A DNA stretch of 64,000 nucleotides. It comes from Adineta ricciae (taxonomy: Eukaryota > Rotifera > Eurotatoria > Adinetida > Adinetidae). Location of the stretch: positions 62,001 to 126,000 of the forward strand of contig CAJNOJ010000233.1 in NCBI GenBank assembly GCA_905250025.1. The letters are read 5' to 3'. Of the stretch, positions 10,804 to 53,122 are shown in pieces (position 1 is the first letter of the stretch; each line of letters begins with the position of its first letter). The translations under genes and the position numbers were made by a program. The notes beneath the pieces were generated by a model. The model ran no database searches and was not told where the DNA came from. It worked only from the letters and a program-made list of their open reading frames with translations.

Positions 10804-10804
10804 N
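10804..10804. other. Assembly gap base (N)
   Basis: A single N, after which the sequence changes abruptly to material unrelated to what follows the homologous point at 23206. Likely a scaffold join. Confidence 0.9.
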
Positions 10805-34405: not shown

Positions 34406-35875
34406 TTATCTCTTTGAGGTATTTTTTTTGATACATGCCGCATCTAAGGTGTTTAATTGACTTTGAAGATTATCAATCATTGATCGAAGATTACGGTTCT
34501 CGATATCAACCTTTTCATTCGCATTTAAAAGTGCCGTAAGTTGTTGTTGTATTGGAATAGGATATTTTCTTGTCATTTCTTCGAAGCATATACGTAATGT
34601 ATGCTCTGTAACAGGTGGTCTTCCCGATAAAGGTAATTGGCATAGTTGACAAGGAACCATTTCAAATTCACATAGTTTTTCGTGCGCTTCAAGTTCATTG
34701 TATAATGAAATCACTTGACATCCATTTGGAGCATATGCACAATAGATTTGTAATCTTTCTAGATCGCTAATGATATCGGTAGGTGCTGGTACTTCTCTGA
34801 AATCATTACAATTGCTTCTTTCATGTCGAACCCCGACATTTATCTGAAGCATATATTTGAATGGGTTGAAAACGTTCTGTTGAGGACGGCATCTTTCGCA
34901 TAAAGTAATACCACATATGCTACAAGAAACTGGGCTCCACAATATGTTACGACATTTGGAACAGAATAATCTATCGTATAAGTTCCAGCTCAATTCCTGA
35001 TACGAAACGACACGATATACATTCAGCTTGCCAACTTCGTTCGTCGATTGAATATAAGTTCGTCCCGGTCTTGCCTATTCGAAACAGAGCAGAAGATCAT
35101 TTGTTACATTTTTACAAACCAACTTACAGCATTACCAGTAATATCTTGTGGCACAAGTATCGTAGCTTGATCATCTTTTTTAGAAAGAAAAATAAACAAA
35201 GAAGATTTTCCCAAAAATCTTTACTTTGTACTTGTCGAAGTTGTTCTTTGAGCTGTTGAATCTCATATTGCGATTCTTGTTGTAAATCTCGAAGTTGCTT
35301 TTTAAGACACATCAAATCCGAATGTCGTGTGAGAACTTCTGCGCGTTTATAAATCATTTTACATTCATCACATTTCGCTACAATTGCCGAACACGAAGAT
35401 TGATGTTCAATAACATTCTTTTGTAACATTTCCAATTGACAACCATTACAAATGACACGTTGATAACCACACATCATTTCGTGTTTTTCAAGTGCTTCAT
35501 ATGGAACAACCTGGAATAAATACATAGACGATGGTTTTCAACAAAATATGTAGGACAAAATGGTATCTAATTGAACTGTTTACAACCATTTGGCTGATAA
35601 ATGCAGATTACTTCCAATTTAGCCAATTGCTTGACAATGAATTTCGAACATGGTCGTTGGTTGAAATTATCACATCGCAATGGACATTGATTTGGATTAT
35701 TTTTCAGCCATTTCGCAATGCATTTCGAACAGAAATGAGTCTCACATTGTTGACATGAGACTGGTTTCCATAGAATATCTTCACATATCGTTGAACAATG
35801 AAGATCGTCTAGATCCATTCCGATCGGACATCGAATTCGTTCAGCACTAAGTCCTAATTCATTAGTCGATGTCAT
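34406..35875 (-). CDS. RING / TRAF-type zinc-finger protein, 4 exons
   Basis: Exons on minus: 35576-35875, 35225-35510, 35128-35174 and 34406-35074; about 433 aa. Exon 1 encodes a RING finger (CEDILWKPVSCQQC, HFCSKCIAKWL, CPLRC) ending in NGCKQ. Exon 2 has TRAF-type zinc fingers (LEKHEMMCGYQRVIC, HQSSCSAIVAKC) and a coiled coil (LKKQLRDLQQES). Exon 4 starts a second Cys-rich RING-like unit (CSKCRNILWSPVSCSIC), another TRAF finger (AHEKLCEFEMVPCQLC) and a short coiled coil. Introns 2 and 3 are canonical. The exon 1/2 join keeps frame only if exon 1 ends after CAG at 35576, where the intron would begin TT rather than GT. Likely an E3 ubiquitin ligase or signalling adaptor (family knowledge). 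No MATH domain was seen. Confidence 0.72.
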
Positions 35876-36543: not shown

Positions 36544-39500
36544 TCAAGCTACACAACACTGACATATATTAGAGAGAGTATATTGAACAAACGACTGTAG
36601 ATTACCAACTGCCAGATCTTGAAAACCATCATTATTCAAATCTCCAGCAATGAAGGAAGGAATGGAATATATATCATCTTGTGTACTTAGTATTGTTTGG
36701 AGTCGAAATTCTCCATTTCCATTACCTATTAAGATGATTAAACCAGATGGTGCAATTTGTCCAATGATTATATCAAGGTATCCATCACAATTGAAATCAT
36801 TAGCAATAAGTGGAGAACTATCAACATATGATTCCAAGGTAATCTTTACTTTATTACTAAATGATCCATTTACATATCCAAACATAATACCAATAGAGTA
36901 CATTGTTGTGTAGGAGAGAGCGACATCAAATACAGAATCACTATTGAAATCAGCAATAACTACATAATATGGATAGATAGAATTGCCTCCACCAGCGAAA
37001 GATGTTATTGGCACTTGGAAATTTCCATTGCCGTATCCAAGAAATAAAGCAATAGTTTTACTCATATGATTCACTACTAGGATATCTACGTGATCATCTC
37101 TATTAAAGTCGACGATGGCAATTGATGTTGGACAACTGTTACGTCCAGTGTAAAGATTTGTTTGTGGCAAAAAACTACCATTACCATAGCCAAGAAATAT
37201 GGCAATATAATGTTCACAATAATTAACAATCGCTACATCGGAATAACTATCATTGTTAAAATCAGTGGCAATCAGGTCGAATGGGTAACTGTTATTTCCA
37301 GTTGAGATTAGATCTGATATTGCAAAACTTCCGTTACCAAAACCGATCATAATACCCATCTGCTGTACATTCGTCTCAATGAAAGCGATGTCTAGCTGTT
37401 TGTCTTGATTGAAATCACTTAAAATAAGCTTATTTAGCAACATTGTGTATCCTATCACGGACATAATCGATGCTCGAAATGTTCCATTACCATTACCAAG
37501 TTGTGTGTTTATTGCATAAGTTGTTGAAGAGAAAAATATGAGATCAAGTTGATTGTCGTTGTTCACGTCACCCATAGCAGATAATTTCAAATTAAGATAA
37601 CCGGGCAAATTGGTTCTTTTCACTTGAAATGCAGCTGGACAAGTCGAAACTACGAATGAGAAGAAAGTGGAAAATCACAACCATAGTTTTAAATCATGTA
37701 CGTCAAATGCTCCATGGCAGAGAAACACAATCACACGTAGTTTACCTTTATCTTCAATGACATTAAACAAATCTTACCCGAAGCATTCGTACTTGTGCTT
37801 AGCATTTCCATACTCGTTGTAGAATTGGTTATACTACTGGTTGCTTCGACCATTGTAGGTACTAATAAAGAAATGTTAAAACAAGCGATCTTCATTTGAT
37901 GATTCATACGACTCGTTCTCATCGAAATCGTGTCTGATAGGACATGATCAGTAAACTGTTTTACTACAAGAGAATTTCATTTTTGTTTTTTTTATTTCCT
38001 AGGCCACATATCTTTCTAGTAGACATTCACTGACTCATAAAAAGAGCTCACCTGTCGACTGAACCGGATTGTCATTCTTCCGAATACCAAAAATGGAAAA
38101 TATAATCAAGATAGTGATTAGAAACAAGATCGATAGGAGTGCTAAACAAAGTTTGAAAGAATACCGAACTGATGCGTTTGCGACCGTTCTATAATTAGAG
38201 AAAGTGAACGAGTTTGATCAACATGAAAGAGAACATACTGATGAAGTTCAATAGTTGGTAACACTAATGTTACTTGAGCAAGAATTTTTCGTTTTTTTCT
38301 CAACTGAAGTATTTGAATTATTTGCGGACAAATCCATTTGAGAACGATATTCAATCCTCCTTGAAAGCCAAGTATCAAAGTAATCGTATATAGAAAATTG
38401 ATCTTCTGAACAAATGTATAAGAACATGATGAAGGTGAGCATTGTTGAAAATATAATGAATAATTTGGTGTTATTGACCATTGTTCAATGAACAAATTCG
38501 AAATGAGTTCGTCAACCGTTGTGTTGATTACAAATCGACTTTGATTTAATGGAAGGGGATCACTATGATTTGTAGATTGTTGGAGAAGATCAAGACACGC
38601 TCGATCGTAGAAACATTCAAGAGTGGATAAACGAAATGATTCACTAGGTATACAACCGATTTTCAAACCTTTGATTGGTACCATTTCCGAAGAATTTCCT
38701 TGAAAAATATATGCTTGAGTTGTACAATTTGGATAAAACGCACAAGAACAGTTGTTATCATAGATAATTGGTTGAGTAATTGCATATGTACTCGAAGGAT
38801 TATTCAATGGATATAAATATCGAAAATTTGTTCCATAAGTTGACACAATAGCGTTTCCTTGATTGATATTTTGAATGAAGGATAAAAGTGTTAAAAATAT
38901 CGTTGGAGCACTAGATATAACCGTTTGAATTCGTAATTGAAGACGATCATTAAAATGCTGTTCAGAAAACAGTTGATCACCAATGAATAATGAGAAAAGA
39001 AACTGTTGTACAGTAGTGTTTACTGATTGTCTAGAAAGTTCGCATAATCCTTGAAGATATTGCAAATGAGAGGAGAGAAAACGACGATAGTCAATTTGAG
39101 AATAATCTAATAAATTTCTTCGCCATTCGTCCGAAGTAAATGTACTTGAACAGATCTAAATTGGATTAAACATAACAAATACCATTGTTGATCTTCTCCT
39201 TTCTTACCTGATGAAATGTCAGATTAACATTGACAAATCGATCGTATGTAAATGAAATTAATGAACATGAACATTTCAATCGTTCATTATATTTTTCATA
39301 AAGTTCATTGTAGATATCAAATGATGGTTTATCAAATGTTTTTCTTCCAACATAAGGTTCAATGGTCGTATACGATGTGAAAATAATGATACCGATGGTG
39401 AAAAGAACCATATAGAGACGTGTTGCCCATTGACCTAAACGTTTCACTGTCACGCTGTCGACATCATGTCCAAAATTTCGTGATGAGAACATATTTAGAT

Positions 39501-42500
39501 TGATTATTGTACTGTAGAGTAACATAATTCCATTCCATATGAATATTTTCATTCCGACGGACTCGTTCATTTGTACTATAGCAAAGTCAGAATTCATATT
39601 TTCTTCTTGTGAAAAGTAAATTGTGATTAATAATTACCTGTTTGTTGTTCTTGTCGTCTGTTGGTAATTATTTTCCATAATTTTGTAATAAATTTGACAA
39701 GACGCGGTATAATCAAGCGTAGTGAAACAGACAGACCACCAATCATCGATATCAATGCTACAATCACGTCAATCGACGTATTCTTACGAAGATTTTCCGA
39801 ATAAGTGCAATACTTTGGTGCGCATAGTTTATAAAAACTTTCATATGACGAACCTGAATTCCATTGTTCAATCATCATATTTTCTACAACAGTGGAGATT
39901 GTTGTATTCGGAGGATAATTACTTGACATTGGATCATATACAAGTGGATGAACATCAAACCAGGATGGATTTTCCACATTATAAACATACATTTCTTTGA
40001 TATAAGTCGTCAGAATTGGAAAACATCCGGAATCTGCATAGAAACATTCAAATGTCGATAATAAAAGAGATTCAGTAGCAGAACAGCCAGTGTATGCTCC
40101 AGGCACTATATACACAACATTGTAGTCAAAATCACCATGAGAATTTGAATTAACAGTATAGATGGCAACTGGACTTTTACAGTTTGAATTTGTTGCACAA
40201 ATACAATTGATCGATGTGTAATTTGTGTTGACAGTTCTACTCAAACCGATGATTAACTAAAAGGAAAAAACAAAGCTTTCATCTCGCTGTTTTATTTTTA
40301 TTGAAAAAAGTCCGTAAGTTTTACCTGTAAAAATTGTTCATCATCTGTTAGAACTGTTACAATATCTGAGATAGAATTTAAATTGTCTTTTGAATCCTGT
40401 TGATGTATTCCCATTAAAGGTTGATCGACTTGCATAAGAAGTCGTACTGTTTCGACAAGAAGATTAAAGTAACGAATAGTCGATTGTAAAAGCTCATTGA
40501 CTGTTGAATTCATTTGTAAAGTGAAATCATTTTCGGACAAGACATTTAAAGTAACAAAATATTGTAAAAGAAAACGATGAATAGCATCCTGAATTGTTTC
40601 ATTAGCAAGTTGACAAAGATTTGACAAGAGCTGAGCTTGTGAAAAAGCTTCACTTCGCCAATCAATGGACACTTCATTCAAACTACTTTGATTCAATATT
40701 GACATCCAACGATATGTGAGAAAATCACTCGTGCAGATCTGATGTAAAACTGGAGAAAATGAAATCAATTTCTGATAAGAAATTGTCATAATTGAACAAG
40801 GACATTCAAGAGTATCCGAATAGAATTTTTTCAAATGATTATAATCATTTAGTGATGGATTCTGTTTTGTTAATGTTATTATTTGTGTACTTAGTGAATT
40901 GAAGAGTACGAGAATGAGTATTGATCCTAAAACAAATCCTTTTCATTATTGAATTCAAATATTTAGTTGAGATATGTCAATCAATGCTCTAGAAAGACTC
41001 TGTACGTACCAATTAATAAAGTTAAGTAGACACGTGTCACTATTGTTTGTTGTTTGATACTATTTTCAGTTCGGTCATTGATATTTTTAAATAGATTCAA
41101 TCGTTTTATTGGTTTGACAGTTACTCGCAAGTGTGTTGAAAAGTTTCCTACAAAAAACACTGTTTATGAATGAGATAAATTTGATTCGAAATATACTTAG
41201 TTGAACACTGTGAAATCTTGTGAAGAAAAGGATGAGAAATGGTGAAATTAATCGTAATATAATGATGAGACCACCGTAGAGGCCAATGAAAATGGTAATT
41301 GCGTACGAGAAATCGAATTGATTGGTCATCGTGTACGTACAAAACTGCGGCGAACATGCATGGAAATATTTGGAATAATTCACCGAGATAATTTGCTTTT
41401 CAATGAAAACTGAAGATAAATAATCACTAACAGACATGTTTTCATTTTCTTTCAAAATTGAGTTTGTCCAATTGACATCAATCTATCAACGAAAAAAGAG
41501 ATTTGAAAATTGAGAAAAAAGTCAATTATTATAGAGACTTGATTCAGATCAGGAAAGTATTTCGACCACAATTCAATACATTCGATATCATACAAACAAT
41601 CAAGTGTACTGTGAAGAATACCGGCAAGTGGAGTACATCCTGCAAAAAAACCATTAGCCAATGTCGAATTCGATTCGGGTGGTGTCCAGATTAACCGATA
41701 TAATGTTCCTGGTCCTTTATGTGAGAAGAAACCTGTTTGGCTAAGTGGATTTCCATTAACGCACAAAACAGAATGGTAATCAATTCCATAATAATCATTA
41801 TAATTGTCGCTAAAAACTGTTGGTATTAAGTAGATACTATATCCAGAACCGGAATTGTAAACTGAAATGATTGAATTGGTATTGAGAGCTGAGACAAAAA
41901 AGTTTGCTTGAGTGATAATTTTGAGATAATTCAAAATTGAAATTATCCGAATGGAAATACTGTTAATGAATAATTCAATAGTTGTATTCACCTGGGACTG
42001 AACTTCCCTGTCAGATAGAAGATTTATACTAAGAAACTCGGTGTTACTAAGATCAATTTCATTTTGACTAATTGCATTTTGTATAGATGAACAAAGACTT
42101 GACAGAAGCTGGAACTAAATACAAAAATTTTGATCAGTGAATGAATACGAAAAGATTTTACTTGAGAATTAGCTATTGTTCGAAAATCTGCCGTTCCAAG
42201 CGCACTTGCATTTGAAAAGTACAACGAATGTATCCAACGTTCAGTGACAAATACACTGGAACAAATTGGATACAATTGATTGGTACTATTCACGAAAGTA
42301 TAATAAGGAATTGCAACTGTCGAACACGGACATGTCAGTTTTTGGTGATGTTCAAGATAAAGTTCATCTAAGATACCAGGACGAGTAATATCCGAAATAA
42401 TAATAGTTTTGGACTGTTGTTTGATCAAAGTGATATAAAAGAGAACGTAGATCGATACTAGACGAAACAATAAAGACGATCTTTTGCTATGGGTTATAGT

Positions 42501-42703
42501 TTTAACAATTCTAGTCAGCGTGTTTATTCGTTGGACTTACTTGTGAGAAGAAGAACGTATAACCACGTGGTATATTTCTGCTGACGGAGAGTGATTGTTT
42601 GATTATTTGATTCTTCGTCGGTATATTCATCATTATCTGGTATGAAAAGATTGTAATTGTATAGAGAATTATACAACCAGCGTAATAGAACTTTCAGATT
42701 CAT
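36544..42703 (-). CDS. Three-module membrane protein fused to FG-GAP propeller
   Basis: Twelve exons on minus: 42541-42703, 42162-42457, 41539-42114, 41197-41482, 41010-41147, 40325-40926, 39638-40256, 39208-39575, 38239-39155, 38052-38188, 37778-37861, 36544-37649. All eleven introns are GT-AG (47-190 bp) and every phase agrees, giving 1763 aa without a stop. Three modules each have a membrane helix (for example TTWLYVLLLTISIYVLF), an ectodomain with LxCPCS, ICSS, CxCA...C, ECFYD.AC and QCSPSSC-type Cys pairs, and a second helix with a Gly-Gly (LILGFQGGLNIVLK). A seventh helix (LCLALLSILFLITILIIF), a Ser/Thr linker and seven FG-GAP repeats (DxNxDxxxD calcium loops, for example DVNNDNQLDL) follow. 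Predicted topology puts all ectodomains and the propeller outside. The module family is unassigned; two- or three-gene alternatives remain possible. Confidence 0.62.
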
Positions 42704-43663
42704 GTTCAGCTGGAAGATGAAGGAAAAACTAAATAACTAATTGTTTGTGGTCGGCTGCGCGTGAACAATTAAATGAAAATCCAATTTCTTTTAGAAGTTC
42801 TTTTCGAGTATCGTTTATGAAAGATGCATGCACTGCTTTGTTTCTACTTGTGTACATTTCAATTTCTAATGAAAGTAAAAAGGAAGAGTAGAATTTCGAT
42901 TTTACTTTACTGTTTCTTTTTCGCGGAATCAACAAGGCCGATTCAAGTTTTCTGTTTAATTTTGTGTTCAAAATGGAGGGAGTCGACATCTGTCTTCTCC
43001 ACGATCATCTCTATTCATATCCTAATGAGAAGCAACAATGCGGGTCTGTTAGTGCAAAATTACTGCGAACTAATAATGTGTTAAAAAGTGTTCAGTCATG
43101 ACATACTACTGTTATGATTGAAAAATAAATTATTTTCTTTTTTAAAAAAAGCATTGTGTAGTTTTGAATATTTTGATGAAATTACATCCGTTTTAACTGT
43201 TTAATTATGAACATTACCAGCAAACACAAGTGCCAACTAGACACAGATAAACTCAACTTATACTCTATGATCCCAACCGAAAGAAGGGACTTGATTTTCG
43301 CATACAAATTTTTCGAATTTTGAAGCTGGAGTTTTAAAACTCGAAGAAAATGTTTAATATTTGGATCGAGTTAACGATTTCTACACTACTCCCCTCTCGT
43401 TAGGAAGAAGTTATTTTAGTTGTTGGTTTTTTTTTTCGAAGAATCACAACGATGAATAATCTTACGAAATATTACGATGTTTTTTCCGAGTAAAGTCTTG
43501 TCACAGATTTTTATCAAGAAGATAAAAATATCATAAACTGTTGTCAAGAAATTGTGCTTGGAAATACTATATCGATGAATCGTCCGTGTTTATCTAAGAT
43601 AAGATGTCTACATATAAATGCAAAATAATAATACCCAGTATTTATTTCAAGTAGGGAACAAGT
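42704..43663. other. Divergent intergenic region
   Basis: Lies between two genes pointing away from each other. TATAAA at 43613-43618 is about 46 bases before the NIDO gene start. No gene recognised. Confidence 0.5.
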
Positions 43664-46600
43664 ATGCTTCGAATACCGTTTATTCTCATTTTGATCCTTC
43701 TTAACATCATAATTGAACGGCATAGTAGTGAAGCCATTCAATCGCTTGATGATTTTTTTCCCTTTGGCCCGGAAGCAGATGACATCCGAATGATACGTAA
43801 TGATGATAAAAGTCTTGGTCCTATACCATTACCTTACATATTCCCGTATTTCGATAACAATCATCGTCAAATCTATCAAGCAAATAATGGTCTTTTTTCT
43901 TTCTTGGGTGGAATATCTACTTACAATCCAATTGAATTCCCAATTGGTAACAATCAACGTTTAATTACCCCGTTCTGGTCTGACATTGACACACGTGGAG
44001 TCACGAGTAATATCTCTGAAAATGCTGTTTATTATCAAGTTCATGTTAGAAACGCGAACAACTCGAGTAATGTGACAGCATTTGTATTTGACAAGGCTAC
44101 ACGCTTTGTTCGTCAATATTTTCCCCGAGAACAAATATTTGAACCAATGATGGTCATTACCGGTACATGGTATCGAGTTGGATATTGTTGCACACATATA
44201 GACCGTCTTAATACTTTTCAAATGGCATTAATTACTGACCAATCACGTAGTTTTGCATTCTTTTTCTACAATGATTTACAATGGGCTAGCCCATCTTCAA
44301 ATGGACCATATGCTCAAGCAGGTTTTAATGCTGGTGATGGTGTTGTATCAAAAATGCTTAAATATTCTCGGACAGGGAATATTACATTACTTGTTAATGA
44401 AAGTAATGTTAATGTGCCTGGCCTATTTGCTTTTCGCATAGATACAACAGATATTGAAGCAGGTGGATGTAACGAGCACGAGAGTCTTACTCATTTACCC
44501 GTGCGTGGTCCACAAATAGGTGACACAACTATAAATTTACAGGGGCCATGTTTTGATTCAAATACAACGGAAGTTCTGTGCCGTTTTGGTGAATTCGGAA
44601 CTGTCAATGGTATGATTTTGAATGAATTTCGAGCTGTTTGTGTTTCACCACTTGCAACATACCCTGGTAATGTTGAATTAACTGTATCTCTTGATGGAGG
44701 CAATACATTCGTATCTTCTGGAACTTTCACATACATGCCCATGACAAACGATGTTCTTATCAATGAAGAAATCATCCTCCGTCAGAATGGTACTGCTACA
44801 CAAGCTGTTAGTTGGGGAGATACAATTGAACTTGAATGGGTGATGTCTGAAGCATTATTCGCTGGAATTGATTCAGATGCTTTGATTGATATTGAATATG
44901 AATCATTGATACCAGACGAAGAAAGTACACGTCGACGACAGAAAGATTCAAATGCAGATGTTGATATTAAAATCGATAAAGTTATAACATTGGCTTCAAA
45001 TATTCGTCCACAAGTCGGTCGTCAAACAATACAAATTGATCTAGCAGAAATTGCGCGAAAACAGCCTCGTATTATTCCTCTAGCAGGTGTTGCAGTTGGT
45101 GCTATTCGCGTTGGTATATTTGTATATCGAGCTTACAAAATTTACCGTGCAGTTAAAACTGCGATCAAAATCATAAAAGCAACCGCAGAAGTGACATGTG
45201 ACATTTGGAGTTCTACTCAGCCGAATCCTTCGACATGGAATCAAAATCTTCCGCCGTGTCCGAACACTCTTCGGCAAGCTCAGGTTGCACGAGCTCAATA
45301 TGTACCTGATCCCGCATGCAAGGATGGAGGATTTCTTCCTTCATTTATTCCCGTTGTTGGTAATTGTTGGTTTCATCAAGGACGACCACAGTTTCAAGAA
45401 GACAATGCGGCAGCGTGTTTTCGCTCAGTTCAATCTAATCAACACGGCGCTGGTGGACAATGTTGTTACAATACCGCCGGACAAATTATCACTCGAGGAA
45501 CTGGGGCTGGCAGCGATGATCGTTATCACAGTGATAAAACATTCTGGAAACACCAGTTTCATGATGTCGCCACGTTTGTTGCTTGCTGTAAATTACAATC
45601 GAATCCGGAGCAATGCGATAAGTATCTTCAACATCGACCTTCACGACCAGGAAGTGATACTATGGGTCAATTTGGTGGTACTTGGGGTGATCCACATTTT
45701 TTAACACTTGATGGAACTGCTTATACATTTAATGGTTACGGAGAATACATATATCTGGTAAGTAGAAGTTCGATGGATAGATTACATATCTGATGAAATA
45801 TATTTTTATAGGCAGTTCCTTTGCAACAAACGATCTCGTATAATTTCAATACTACTTTTCGATTCGAATCACAAATTCGTACTACACCGATAGGATCTGG
45901 GGCAGCTACTGCAACAGCGATCAAAGCTTTTGCTGTTAGAATTGGTATGCAGAAACTTGCCATCACAGTATCTCGAAGAAATCAACTTCTTATTCTTCTG
46001 AATAATGATGAGCTGATATTTGAAACTGATCAAGATACATCGACGAACTTAGATCTCATTACTTTCCGTTTCGAAGAGTTTTTCATTTCGAAAAATCGGA
46101 CAAATAATCAACTTACACTGGTATGTGCACAAGGTGTTAGTATTCAGATCACACCAGTCTATGTAGCCACAGCGTCAACTATGGTTCTGAATATCGGCGC
46201 AGCAATTAGTGGAGAATTAAAAGGTGAATGGACATTAGGTTTAATTGGTTCTTACGATGGTAATCCTTTAAATGATTTACGAGATCGTTCTGGTGTCGTT
46301 ATTGGCACTGTTGATGAACTTTCGTCACAAGAAATACATGAAGTAAGTTTTTATGCACACCAGTTTTGTTTTCTTCTAAGAAGAATTCTTCATTTTCAGC
46401 AATTTGGCATGACATGGGCGATTGACCCTACTCGATCTCTTTTCTTTTACGAATCAGGTGATAATGCTTCGTTTTATTCATTTCAAAATCAAAATTACCG
46501 ACCAATGTTCAATGCTCTTATCGTCGATTCTGACAACGCAAATGCTCGTGATGCTTGTGAGATTCCTCACAATGCAACTGATTCATCGCAATGGTCTACT

Positions 46601-50159: not shown

Positions 50160-53122
50160 GATTTTCAGTTTTGGAATTGGCGAAGTTAGCAACCAATTTG
50201 CAAGAACTCGAATTTCTTTTCAAGATCTCATTTCCGTTAGGTATCATGCTCGTATAAAATCTCACAGAAACTATTCTTTGTCGAGGGTAAACACGACAAA
50301 ACTCGACTATAACTTTCCTCATCTCACTCAAATCGGTAGCAAAACATGGATATGCTCATCTTCTTACATGAAATGCTTTTGATTCTCGATCATCAGATCC
50401 GACAATCACACGCTGTGAATTGTTAACAACTCGTTTGTATCTCATTCTTCTGCTTATTTGTGTCGGTGTTTTAACAGCTTATACATCATTCAGTGTGCGA
50501 TCCAAAAGCGAATTCGTTCTCACTCCAACTTATTCTCAATATCAGAAACTTCAACGGCAAACGAGTCTCAGTGCCATGTGGAAATTCATTCGATCATTTT
50601 GTCAAAATGCTCACCGAATCATCGAAGCAAATGCACTACTAACCGCATCAGGAAACAACTATGTTCTTCGCGTGGTGTATGATAATCAATCTACTGATCC
50701 AAACCCGGATTTTTATGCCGCGATACATCGAAATCAATTTATACAAAACAATTCGAAGAAAGCCTGTGTCTGTGAGAATGATCGTTCGTGTCCACTTCCT
50801 GCTAATATTTATTTGTTCGACATCACACATTGATCTGTAGTTTATGACATGAACACAATACCATTCAATGAAACTTTGCTTGGCCTAGTTGTTACAATTG
50901 TTTGCCATTTCAAATGACATTTCGATCAACATTGGAATACTTTTATCACCAATCATATCTTGACTTTCATCTTATCAACAAAAGATCAATATTTCCATTC
51001 TAAATTCATCTCAGTCAAGTCAATTTGACCCAACAACAACAATCAAATCACTTTTCAGTGAACTTTTTCTTGAAGAAATCCACAATGAAACAAATTATGA
51101 AGATTATTACTTGACATGTTTTCTCAAAACATGTTCCTATTCATTCAATCATCGATTTAATTGGATCCACGCTTTGTCAACCCTGTTCGGACTTGAGGGT
51201 GGCATATCAGTCGTTTTACGTGTTATTACTCCCTATCTCATTCTTTTGTTTCTCTTCTTATACAAAGTGTTTTTTTGCAAAGAATCGACCAATGAGACAA
51301 CCATCAGGTAGGAGAATTTCAACAACAAGAAGGATCGACGATCGGCTTATCATTTTAGGTGAAAATTTCCCTAATCGATTCAAACGAATTTTAAAGAAGA
51401 TAAAAGACAAAATTGTAAGTTTAAACATCTACACAAAATATTCTCATGACGAAACATGTGTTCGTCATGGTCATCTACTCATCTGTATTAATTGAAACTA
51501 TCACTGAACAAGTTGTTCATCCAACACTAGACGAAGAATATCCGTTAACATTGATGTGTCCTTGTAGTCAAATGCCTATTCCGTACGAAGATTTTGTTCA
51601 AGTCTGGTGGTATCAAACTTTATCATTCCCGAATAATCCAACGGCAGACGTTCGTTTTATTTAGCTATCTTCATCATACTTGCAAACATTGGCAAGTTTT
51701 TGTGAATTAGTCAATGAAACAGTGAAGAACGGAGTTGAACAATATCTCTCCACTACATTTGTCAATGGTTTTACTTTATCCAATGATTCATTTCATGCAT
51801 AAATGAGTTCATTGATCAACTCATTCATCGAACATCGTTGACACAACTGTTTCTTCAGAGTGGTCAATACGCGAATCGTTTGCCGTTAAGTACATATATT
51901 GCACTAGTAAAATCTTATGTCGATTCTGACTTACAAGCTGTAAATGTATGCGCAATGCCCTCATACGTCAAGAAATATATCGATGGTACGAAATGTTTTT
52001 GTGCACTTGATTCCAGTTGTAATTTAGAAGATTGGGTGTTGACAGCAGCTTCACTCAAGTCCGTGTCTTGGGGACTTCCTGGAATAATTGGAGGTTATAC
52101 TATGGTTGATACTGTGTTCAGATCATCGTTTGTATCTTGGTTAAATGATGACTTGAACTCTACGTTGACACGAGTCTTGAAGGATGCGGGTGCAGCTGTA
52201 CCTCGTTTCCCAAGAATACTTAGCTCAACAGTTCCGAATCGATATGCCACAACAGCATCAGCTGAGTCGATTTTGAATCATCTGATGATTGAAGATTGGA
52301 ATGTGACTTATTCCTACGAGAATTATTATTTTAAATGTTTTTGACAGCGAATCAAATGATACCAGAACTATTCATCACGAACGAATAACTACACAAGTGT
52401 ATCTATTTCTCTTATTGTTCCCGTTATATTCCATAATACTTTATTCAATGTTTTCCAACGGAACTATGAACATCACGGTCTACAATCCCATGGAAAGTGA
52501 TTACAAAAAGTTAATGACGTTGTATTCAACGTCATTTCAATGTCCTTGTAATAATATTTCAGTTCAATATAAGAGTTTTCTTCGTGTTGATGCCATCTTT
52601 CATGAGATTTGTTCGAGTGACTTCGTCCAGGCAGAATGGCGTGATTATTTGTTTGATCAAGGCAATTGGCTGGATCATTATCGAGTGGATGTACGTTCAC
52701 GTCGAGGAATCTATTTTACATTTCTTTCCACTTTATGACAATTATCAAAGACCACAGTTCAACATGCGATTGATCAATTTCTTAATGAAACCTTTATCAA
52801 TACTCAACTGATTCCTCGATCGGAGTTTCAGCTTCGAATTAACATCAGCAATTTTATCTTACAATCTCAGCAAATAACAACAGCACAGTTTTCGCGCAGT
52901 GTAGATCTACTGCACAATGTGATGGATGGCAATGGTTTAATCTCTTCCTACCTTCTGAATTATAAGTGGTCGATCGATTTAAACAGAACTTACACGACAA
53001 TTCCAATTAGTTCAGTGACGATGAAAACTGGATGTTCGTGTGGAACACGAACTGACTGTATTGAATCAGGAGGAATATATTATGATAGGACGAATAGTCA
53101 AGTATTCGCAACACCCGGATGA
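50160..53122 (+). pseudogene. Decayed relative of the multi-module membrane gene
   Basis: Pieces in module order on plus. Helix LTTRLYLILLLICVGVLTAY at 50423. Ectodomain Cys pair CVCENDRSC at about 50765. Helix two with Gly-Gly (LFGLEGGISVVLRVITPYL) at 51185. Basic loop at 51340-51420. A second module starts near 51446 with LMCPCSQMPIPYEDF, then CFCALDSSC (52000) and LMIEDWNVTYSYENYYFKC (52290). A third module starts at 52397 (FQCPCNNISVQY, EICSSDF) with GCSCGTRTDC at 53025. Stops and frame changes separate the pieces, and large ectodomain parts are missing. It repeats the head-to-tail module plan of 36544-42703, in the opposite orientation. Homology is seen by motif order only. Confidence 0.6.

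Follow-up and report, generated by a model that had tools for sequence, protein, structure and literature searches.

Trimeric receptors and channels of the DEG/ENaC and P2X families are built from three units, each with two membrane helices, both ends inside and a large cystine-rich ectodomain, and each unit is a chain of its own. Single-chain pseudo-tetramers such as Nav and Cav are textbook examples of another solution: in these four-repeat proteins, and in the two-pore channels, an oligomer has become one chain by internal repetition. We know of no two-helix trimer that occurs in nature as one chain, and the open-licence literature searched showed none. Integrin alpha offers a further point of comparison, as it carries a seven-bladed FG-GAP propeller with calcium loops on the outside. 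Here we describe a gene within a 64,000-nucleotide stretch of the bdelloid rotifer Adineta ricciae (assembly GCA_905250025.1, contig CAJNOJ010000233.1, positions 62,001 to 126,000; hereafter the window), whose product holds three two-helix, Cys-rich modules, a seventh helix and an FG-GAP propeller. It differs from DEG/ENaC and P2X in having three units in one chain, not three chains; from Nav, Cav and the two-pore channels in its threefold rather than fourfold plan and its two-helix units, with no sequence relation found and a channel role that is putative; and from integrin alpha in that its propeller is borne by a seventh helix, which follows the three two-helix modules.

The gene lies on the minus strand, from an ATG at 42703 to a stop at 36544, in 12 exons (E1–E12; Table 1). 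As an earlier note on this DNA had claimed, the 11 introns (47–190 bp) all have GT-AG ends and join the exons into one continuous frame of 1763 codons, the sole stop being terminal. The 1763-amino-acid (aa) product is identical to a deposited, unnamed A. ricciae protein (P0121). A published annotation of A. ricciae was made with BRAKER and RNA-seq (PMC5916493), and P0121 may stem from that run. Judged from the sequence, the window gene almost certainly encodes one single chain.

A hydropathy scan revealed hydrophobic helices near aa 48, 406, 476, 852, 947, 1270 and 1337. The first six form pairs (48–66 with 406–424 in module 1, 476–494 with 852–870 in module 2, and 947–965 with 1270–1288 in module 3), and every module follows the same plan of a helix, a Cys-rich stretch of ~300–350 residues and a second helix. 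With helix limits set by hand, the stretches placed outside contain 10, 12, 12 and 7 cysteines and those placed inside 0, 0, 0 and 1, and lysine plus arginine account for 9–17% of residues inside versus 3–7% outside. This distribution fits the outside placement of the Cys-rich domains and the propeller, which the note had predicted. Weaker hydropathy windows at 900–918 (1.53, just above threshold), 1092–1110 (1.65) and 1685–1703 (1.73) were not counted as membrane helices, and 900–918 was presumed to be a helix lying inside, ahead of the first membrane helix of module 3. As with the seventh helix here, most long-tailed relatives have a helix at a comparable distance beyond their last module. 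When the whole protein was compared with Pfam, two FG-GAP families alone reached their cut-offs (FG-GAP_3, 6.2e-31, 6 stretches), and no other integrin domain, including those of the legs, did so. The C-terminal part shows about seven repeats with calcium-loop motifs, as FG-GAP propellers do: seven DxNxDxxxD-like motifs, spaced 51–53 aa apart, lie between aa 1423 and 1732, and the propeller therefore probably has seven blades.

Two protein searches at E 0.001, each with one module as the query, returned 205 and 320 matches, and among the 120 listed of each, the organism names were Adineta or Rotaria only. A long query yielded 51 relatives, all listed and all from Adineta (A. ricciae, A. vaga and A. 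steineri). After split hits were merged, 42 of these carried three modules in whole or in part, nine carried two and none carried more than three; 25 had three near-full modules. Proteins with four modules could have turned up, because candidates as long as 3085 aa were admitted, and the longest open frame among the genome matches listed (1314 aa) also comprises three modules. The order was m1-m2-m3 in 39 relatives and m2-m3 in eight, with other labels in four; as the models assigning these labels were derived from the same proteins, a tree is the better test of module order. Three modules in a fixed order within one chain characterize the family, in line with the internal repetition proposed earlier, and the same fusion occurs in all three species. 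That orthologues might always be split into separate genes, a possibility raised in the note, is contradicted by the 42 three-module relatives and by the one-frame joins and single-exon frames described below.

Like the window protein, its relatives have three modules, with or without a propeller. At least five FG-GAP-like motifs follow the modules in 27 of the 51, and ten end no more than 30 residues past a last module that extends to model position 383 or beyond. Family members can thus lack the propeller, a further difference from integrin alpha. The deposited relatives are unnamed or hypothetical, the records seen are without function, and FG-GAP is the sole annotated domain in most; the family was not described in the open-licence literature searched (titles and abstract openings). 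The note had known of no described protein with this plan; the protein had already been deposited, though unnamed, as P0121, and its plan is common to a large bdelloid family.

At the exon level, genome searches yielded at least 123 matches to module 3, 130 to module 1 and 116 to module 2, in overlapping sets; these are lower bounds, with 98 of 1371, 96 of 1389 and 93 of 1416 candidates scored, respectively. The end of module 2 and the start of module 3 stood in one open frame at six of the 36 loci scanned (L009–L044), namely L015, L016, L021, L023, L024 and L028; the frames of L021 and L028 match in both position and size, and these two loci may be close copies of one another. Modules 2 and 3 were also joined in one frame in 12 of 46 hand-picked jgi, ena or lgn hits, joins that we presume to be unspliced frames. 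Moreover, locus L057 holds a single, stop-closed open frame of 1287 codons (1266 from the first ATG) with three full modules, and L058 holds a single-exon frame of at least 1283 aa in the fetched stretch (open frame 1314 aa), likewise with three modules. No intron-free module 1–2 join of the window type was found. Because modules 2 and 3 share one frame at several loci and L057 and L058 are single-exon frames, the fusion in the family is independent of splice choice.

The profile and structure searches suggested in the note for a single module identified no known family. The three modules alone had no Pfam match even at E 10. We then considered predicted structures of two relatives. The model of P0010, a 430-aa one-module protein, was built from 120 sequences (mean predicted local distance difference test (pLDDT) 89.8, predicted template modelling score (pTM) 0.73) and had no significant PDB or BFVD match in Foldseek, although the match list could miss an ASIC-like palm/finger/thumb fold. 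Its helix 1 (18–49) runs straight into a strand (52–59), a second strand (353–362) runs straight into helix 2 (366–406), and two long helices (132–162 and 173–208) lie between. P0145, a 1116-aa protein with parts of all three modules, was modelled from 39 sequences with pLDDT 78.2 and pTM 0.71. From the pTM formula we estimated ~0.35 for three unplaced modules and ~0.57 for two placed ones; because the P0145 value exceeds these estimates, each of the three modules is predicted to have a defined position relative to the other two.

Residue conservation distinguishes the module positions. Twelve cysteine columns are kept nearly throughout the family, and the ectodomains of modules 2 and 3 have all 12 and that of module 1 has ten. 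Columns 244 and 252 are absent in 28/28 m1 rows and both present in 33/33 m2 and 33/33 m3 rows, a paired loss that suggests one disulfide. The core of the second helix comprises G378 and G379, found in most rows of every class, and L384. The adjoining column 385 is basic, with R in 28/28 m1, R or K in 27/33 m2, K in at least 18/33 m3 and K in 10/10 intronless single modules, and P389 is present in 31/33 m2, 32/33 m3 and 10/10 intronless modules. In a trimer, column 385 could supply a ring of basic residues that lines a pore or binds lipid.

Next, we examined the origin of the three modules. In a tree of 11 window-type proteins, chosen by hand from the 42 and covering the three species, positions 1, 2 and 3 formed three clades, each supported at 100/100. 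As the positions form three clades, the window-type set of three is old and inherited. L057 and P0165 represent another position-conserved set (100/99, 100/99 and 99/99). In L058, modules 1 and 3 are sisters (100/99) that share 48% identity, against 32–35% with module 2, which points to recent duplication or exchange within this gene. The L058 modules group with single-module relatives (100/99) and as a trio of their own at 75/28 only, and grouping them with their window-type counterparts was rejected (p = 0.0006, 0.031 and 2e-5). L058 is either a separate second set of three or the outcome of module exchange within the gene, and the phylogeny suggests that three-module sets may have evolved repeatedly. 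Such recurrence would be expected if selection favoured a trimer. A 120-row FastTree, restricted to module rows that cover at least 330 model positions, placed proteins annotated as single-module within the clade of module 3; candidate stand-alone modules with such an annotation include P0193, P0195 and P0218.

The number of modules, which the note did not discuss, suggests a pseudo-trimer. We propose that the one polypeptide is a covalent pseudo-trimer in which each module would act as a subunit of two helices, its termini inside and its cystine-rich ectodomain outside. The three modules would be packed side by side in the membrane around a pseudo-threefold axis, as separate subunits are in trimeric two-helix receptors and channels. 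The seventh helix would hold a calcium-binding FG-GAP propeller, probably external and seven-bladed, as a ligand-binding or adhesive head; binding outside could be relayed to the membrane helices, and a pore may exist. A packed pseudo-trimer appears reasonably probable, and a covalent pseudo-trimeric receptor with an external propeller is, taken as a whole, the explanation towards which we lean slightly. Channel function is conceivable but doubtful; the protein may work like a DEG/ENaC channel without belonging to that family. The boldest version, in which bdelloids invented a class of single-chain trimeric channels or receptors with a fold absent from PDB, at least two fusion events, a large family and a detachable integrin-like propeller that does the sensing, is speculative, and we would expect it to be wrong. 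If the pseudo-trimer is real, the many natural trios of this family, with their subunits in a fixed order, would show how the three positions of a trimer become specialised; only module 1, for instance, has lost a pair of cysteines. Bdelloids are known for lineage-specific gene expansions, and the finding supplies the layout of one large bdelloid protein family that had not been described.

Several observations weigh against the pseudo-trimer and its proposed history. Two modules only are present in the nine relatives noted above. Were aa 900–918, in the linker between modules 2 and 3, a membrane helix, the topology would be upset, and the P0145 model contains an extra helix (792–812) in that same linker. 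P0145 is moreover a relative, not the window protein, and its modules 1 and 3 are incomplete, module 3 at its end; its packing was judged from pTM, which confinement of helices to the membrane can by itself raise, and threefold symmetry was not seen. The basic residue at column 385 is not universal, being Q in 7/33 and E in 4/33 m3 rows, and P389 occurs in only 9/28 m1 rows. No known channel signature was found. As for a repeated origin, L058 alone supports it, gene conversion could mimic such a signal, and L058 was picked for the test after the likeness of its modules 1 and 3 had been noticed. In addition, positional orthology of P0165 with the window set was not rejected by the approximately unbiased test (p = 0.34, 0.27 and 0.23).

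Three alternatives have to be set against a pseudo-trimer. One is that three or four tandem genes were misjoined by splice choice. Taken separately, each module can indeed pass for an independent gene, and the unspliced frame between modules 2 and 3 stops, with an ATG following in another frame. Nonetheless, no start codon precedes the module 2 helix or the seventh helix in their frames, the exons are gap-free in a near copy of the gene (see below), and relatives have single-exon three-module frames and intron-free module 2–3 joins; such an artefact is very improbable here and is nearly refuted for the family. The modules might instead be true but very divergent DEG/ENaC or P2X subunits. They share the DEG/ENaC-like layout of two helices, ends inside and a large disulfide-rich ectodomain, would be used in threes, and in the P0010 model have strands right after helix 1 and before helix 2. 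Yet no module had a Pfam match at E 10, whether to P2X or to any other family, and no significant PDB fold match was obtained. When the A4, m3 and m1 profiles were compared with five DEG/ENaC (PF00858) frames of the same genome (m2 was not run), the hhalign probability was 0.1–0.3%, while a DEG/ENaC profile reduced to three rows matched 5/5 other DEG/ENaC loci (best frame each) at over 99%. The G/SxS selectivity-filter motif, assigned to the second helix of DEG/ENaC (PMC8536179), is not conserved, as [GS]xS occurs anywhere in columns 370–392 in 24/120 module rows; nor is HG before the first helix, found in 4/120 rows (columns 2–32 only, where some rows are cut). Membership of either channel family is accordingly a minor candidate that we consider improbable. 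Ordinary DEG/ENaC genes are numerous in this genome, PF00858 having 90 exon-level matches, none on the window's contig. Separately, the control list reports a candidate match of this animal channel family in Thermotoga maritima.

The main rival to a channel is a non-channel receptor or adhesion protein, that is, a pore-less molecule for adhesion or recognition in which the ectodomains and the propeller serve as tandem binding domains and the number three is a chance event preserved through inheritance. FG-GAP propellers of integrins are binding domains; the family studied here is large and, among the named matches listed, confined to bdelloids. The lack of a channel motif and the positional clades of window-type proteins, which reflect one inherited set of three, also agree with such a receptor. 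A large family of this kind resembles the repeat-protein expansions listed for A. vaga (PMC3846280). A mere accident of descent is harder to reconcile with L058, whose set of three looks not to be inherited from the window type, with modules that are predicted to pack on one another, and with conservation that extends to the second membrane helix. We rate this pore-less receptor as rather unlikely, and retain the pseudo-trimer as the working explanation.

Table 1 Parts of the three-module gene and its two matching introns, in window coordinates.
Feature	Position	Strand	Details
Module 1 (aa 1–440)	41197..42703	-	E1 42541–42703, E2 42162–42457, E3 41539–42114, E4 41197–41482
Module 2 (aa 441–893)	39638..41147	-	E5 41010–41147, E6 40325–40926, E7 39638–40256
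Module 3 (aa 894–1321)	38239..39575	-	E8 39208–39575, E9 38239–39155
Seventh helix (aa 1337–1355) and Ser/Thr-rich stalk	37778..38188	-	E10 38052–38188, E11 37778–37861
FG-GAP propeller (aa 1396–1763)	36544..37649	-	E12; Pfam FG-GAP_3 and calcium-loop motifs
Intron 1	42458..42540	-	phase 1, 83 bp, within first helix of module 1
Intron 5	40927..41009	-	phase 1, 83 bp, within first helix of module 2

The intron pattern had been cited in the note as a sign of duplication. Introns 1 and 5 do occupy an equal aligned position in their modules and share their phase, and phase-1 introns stand on both sides of module 2. Their equal length is probably a coincidence, because the two sequences are no more alike than shuffled ones (184 of 500 shuffles were as good).

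A 95%-identical copy (L041) lies ~35 kb away on the gene's own contig and covers aa 390 onward. It shows no gap in the covered exons and gaps in 4/8 covered introns, and it keeps GT-AG at all eight. The ratio of nonsynonymous to synonymous substitution rates between the two is 0.28 overall, and is 0.42 for the end of module 1 and module 2, 0.29 for module 3, 0.21 for helix 7 and the stalk and 0.18 for the propeller, values below 1 in each part that are given without a significance test. L041 is without most of module 1, the break being marked by one N. A small contig (C999) carries an 82–91% copy of module 1, which need not be the part absent from L041, because it also covers the module 1 end that L041 has.

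Elsewhere in the genome, contig C553 has three consecutive one-exon modules separated by 0.7 and 1.0 kb, the last incomplete in the fetched stretch. At L034, two nearly identical module ends lie within one frame, a sign of recent duplication or exchange. Within the window, the family has a second three-module locus at 50375–53089 on the plus strand, present as divergent pieces in fragmented, short frames. In the gene's divergent neighbour at 43655–45793 (plus strand), one frame contains NIDO, TIG and AMOP domains together with the beginning of a VWD domain that scores below its cut-off. Single N letters at 10804 and 23034 are possibly scaffold joins, and neither is within the gene. On the minus strand, a RING-finger-like reading frame is found at 35567–35872.

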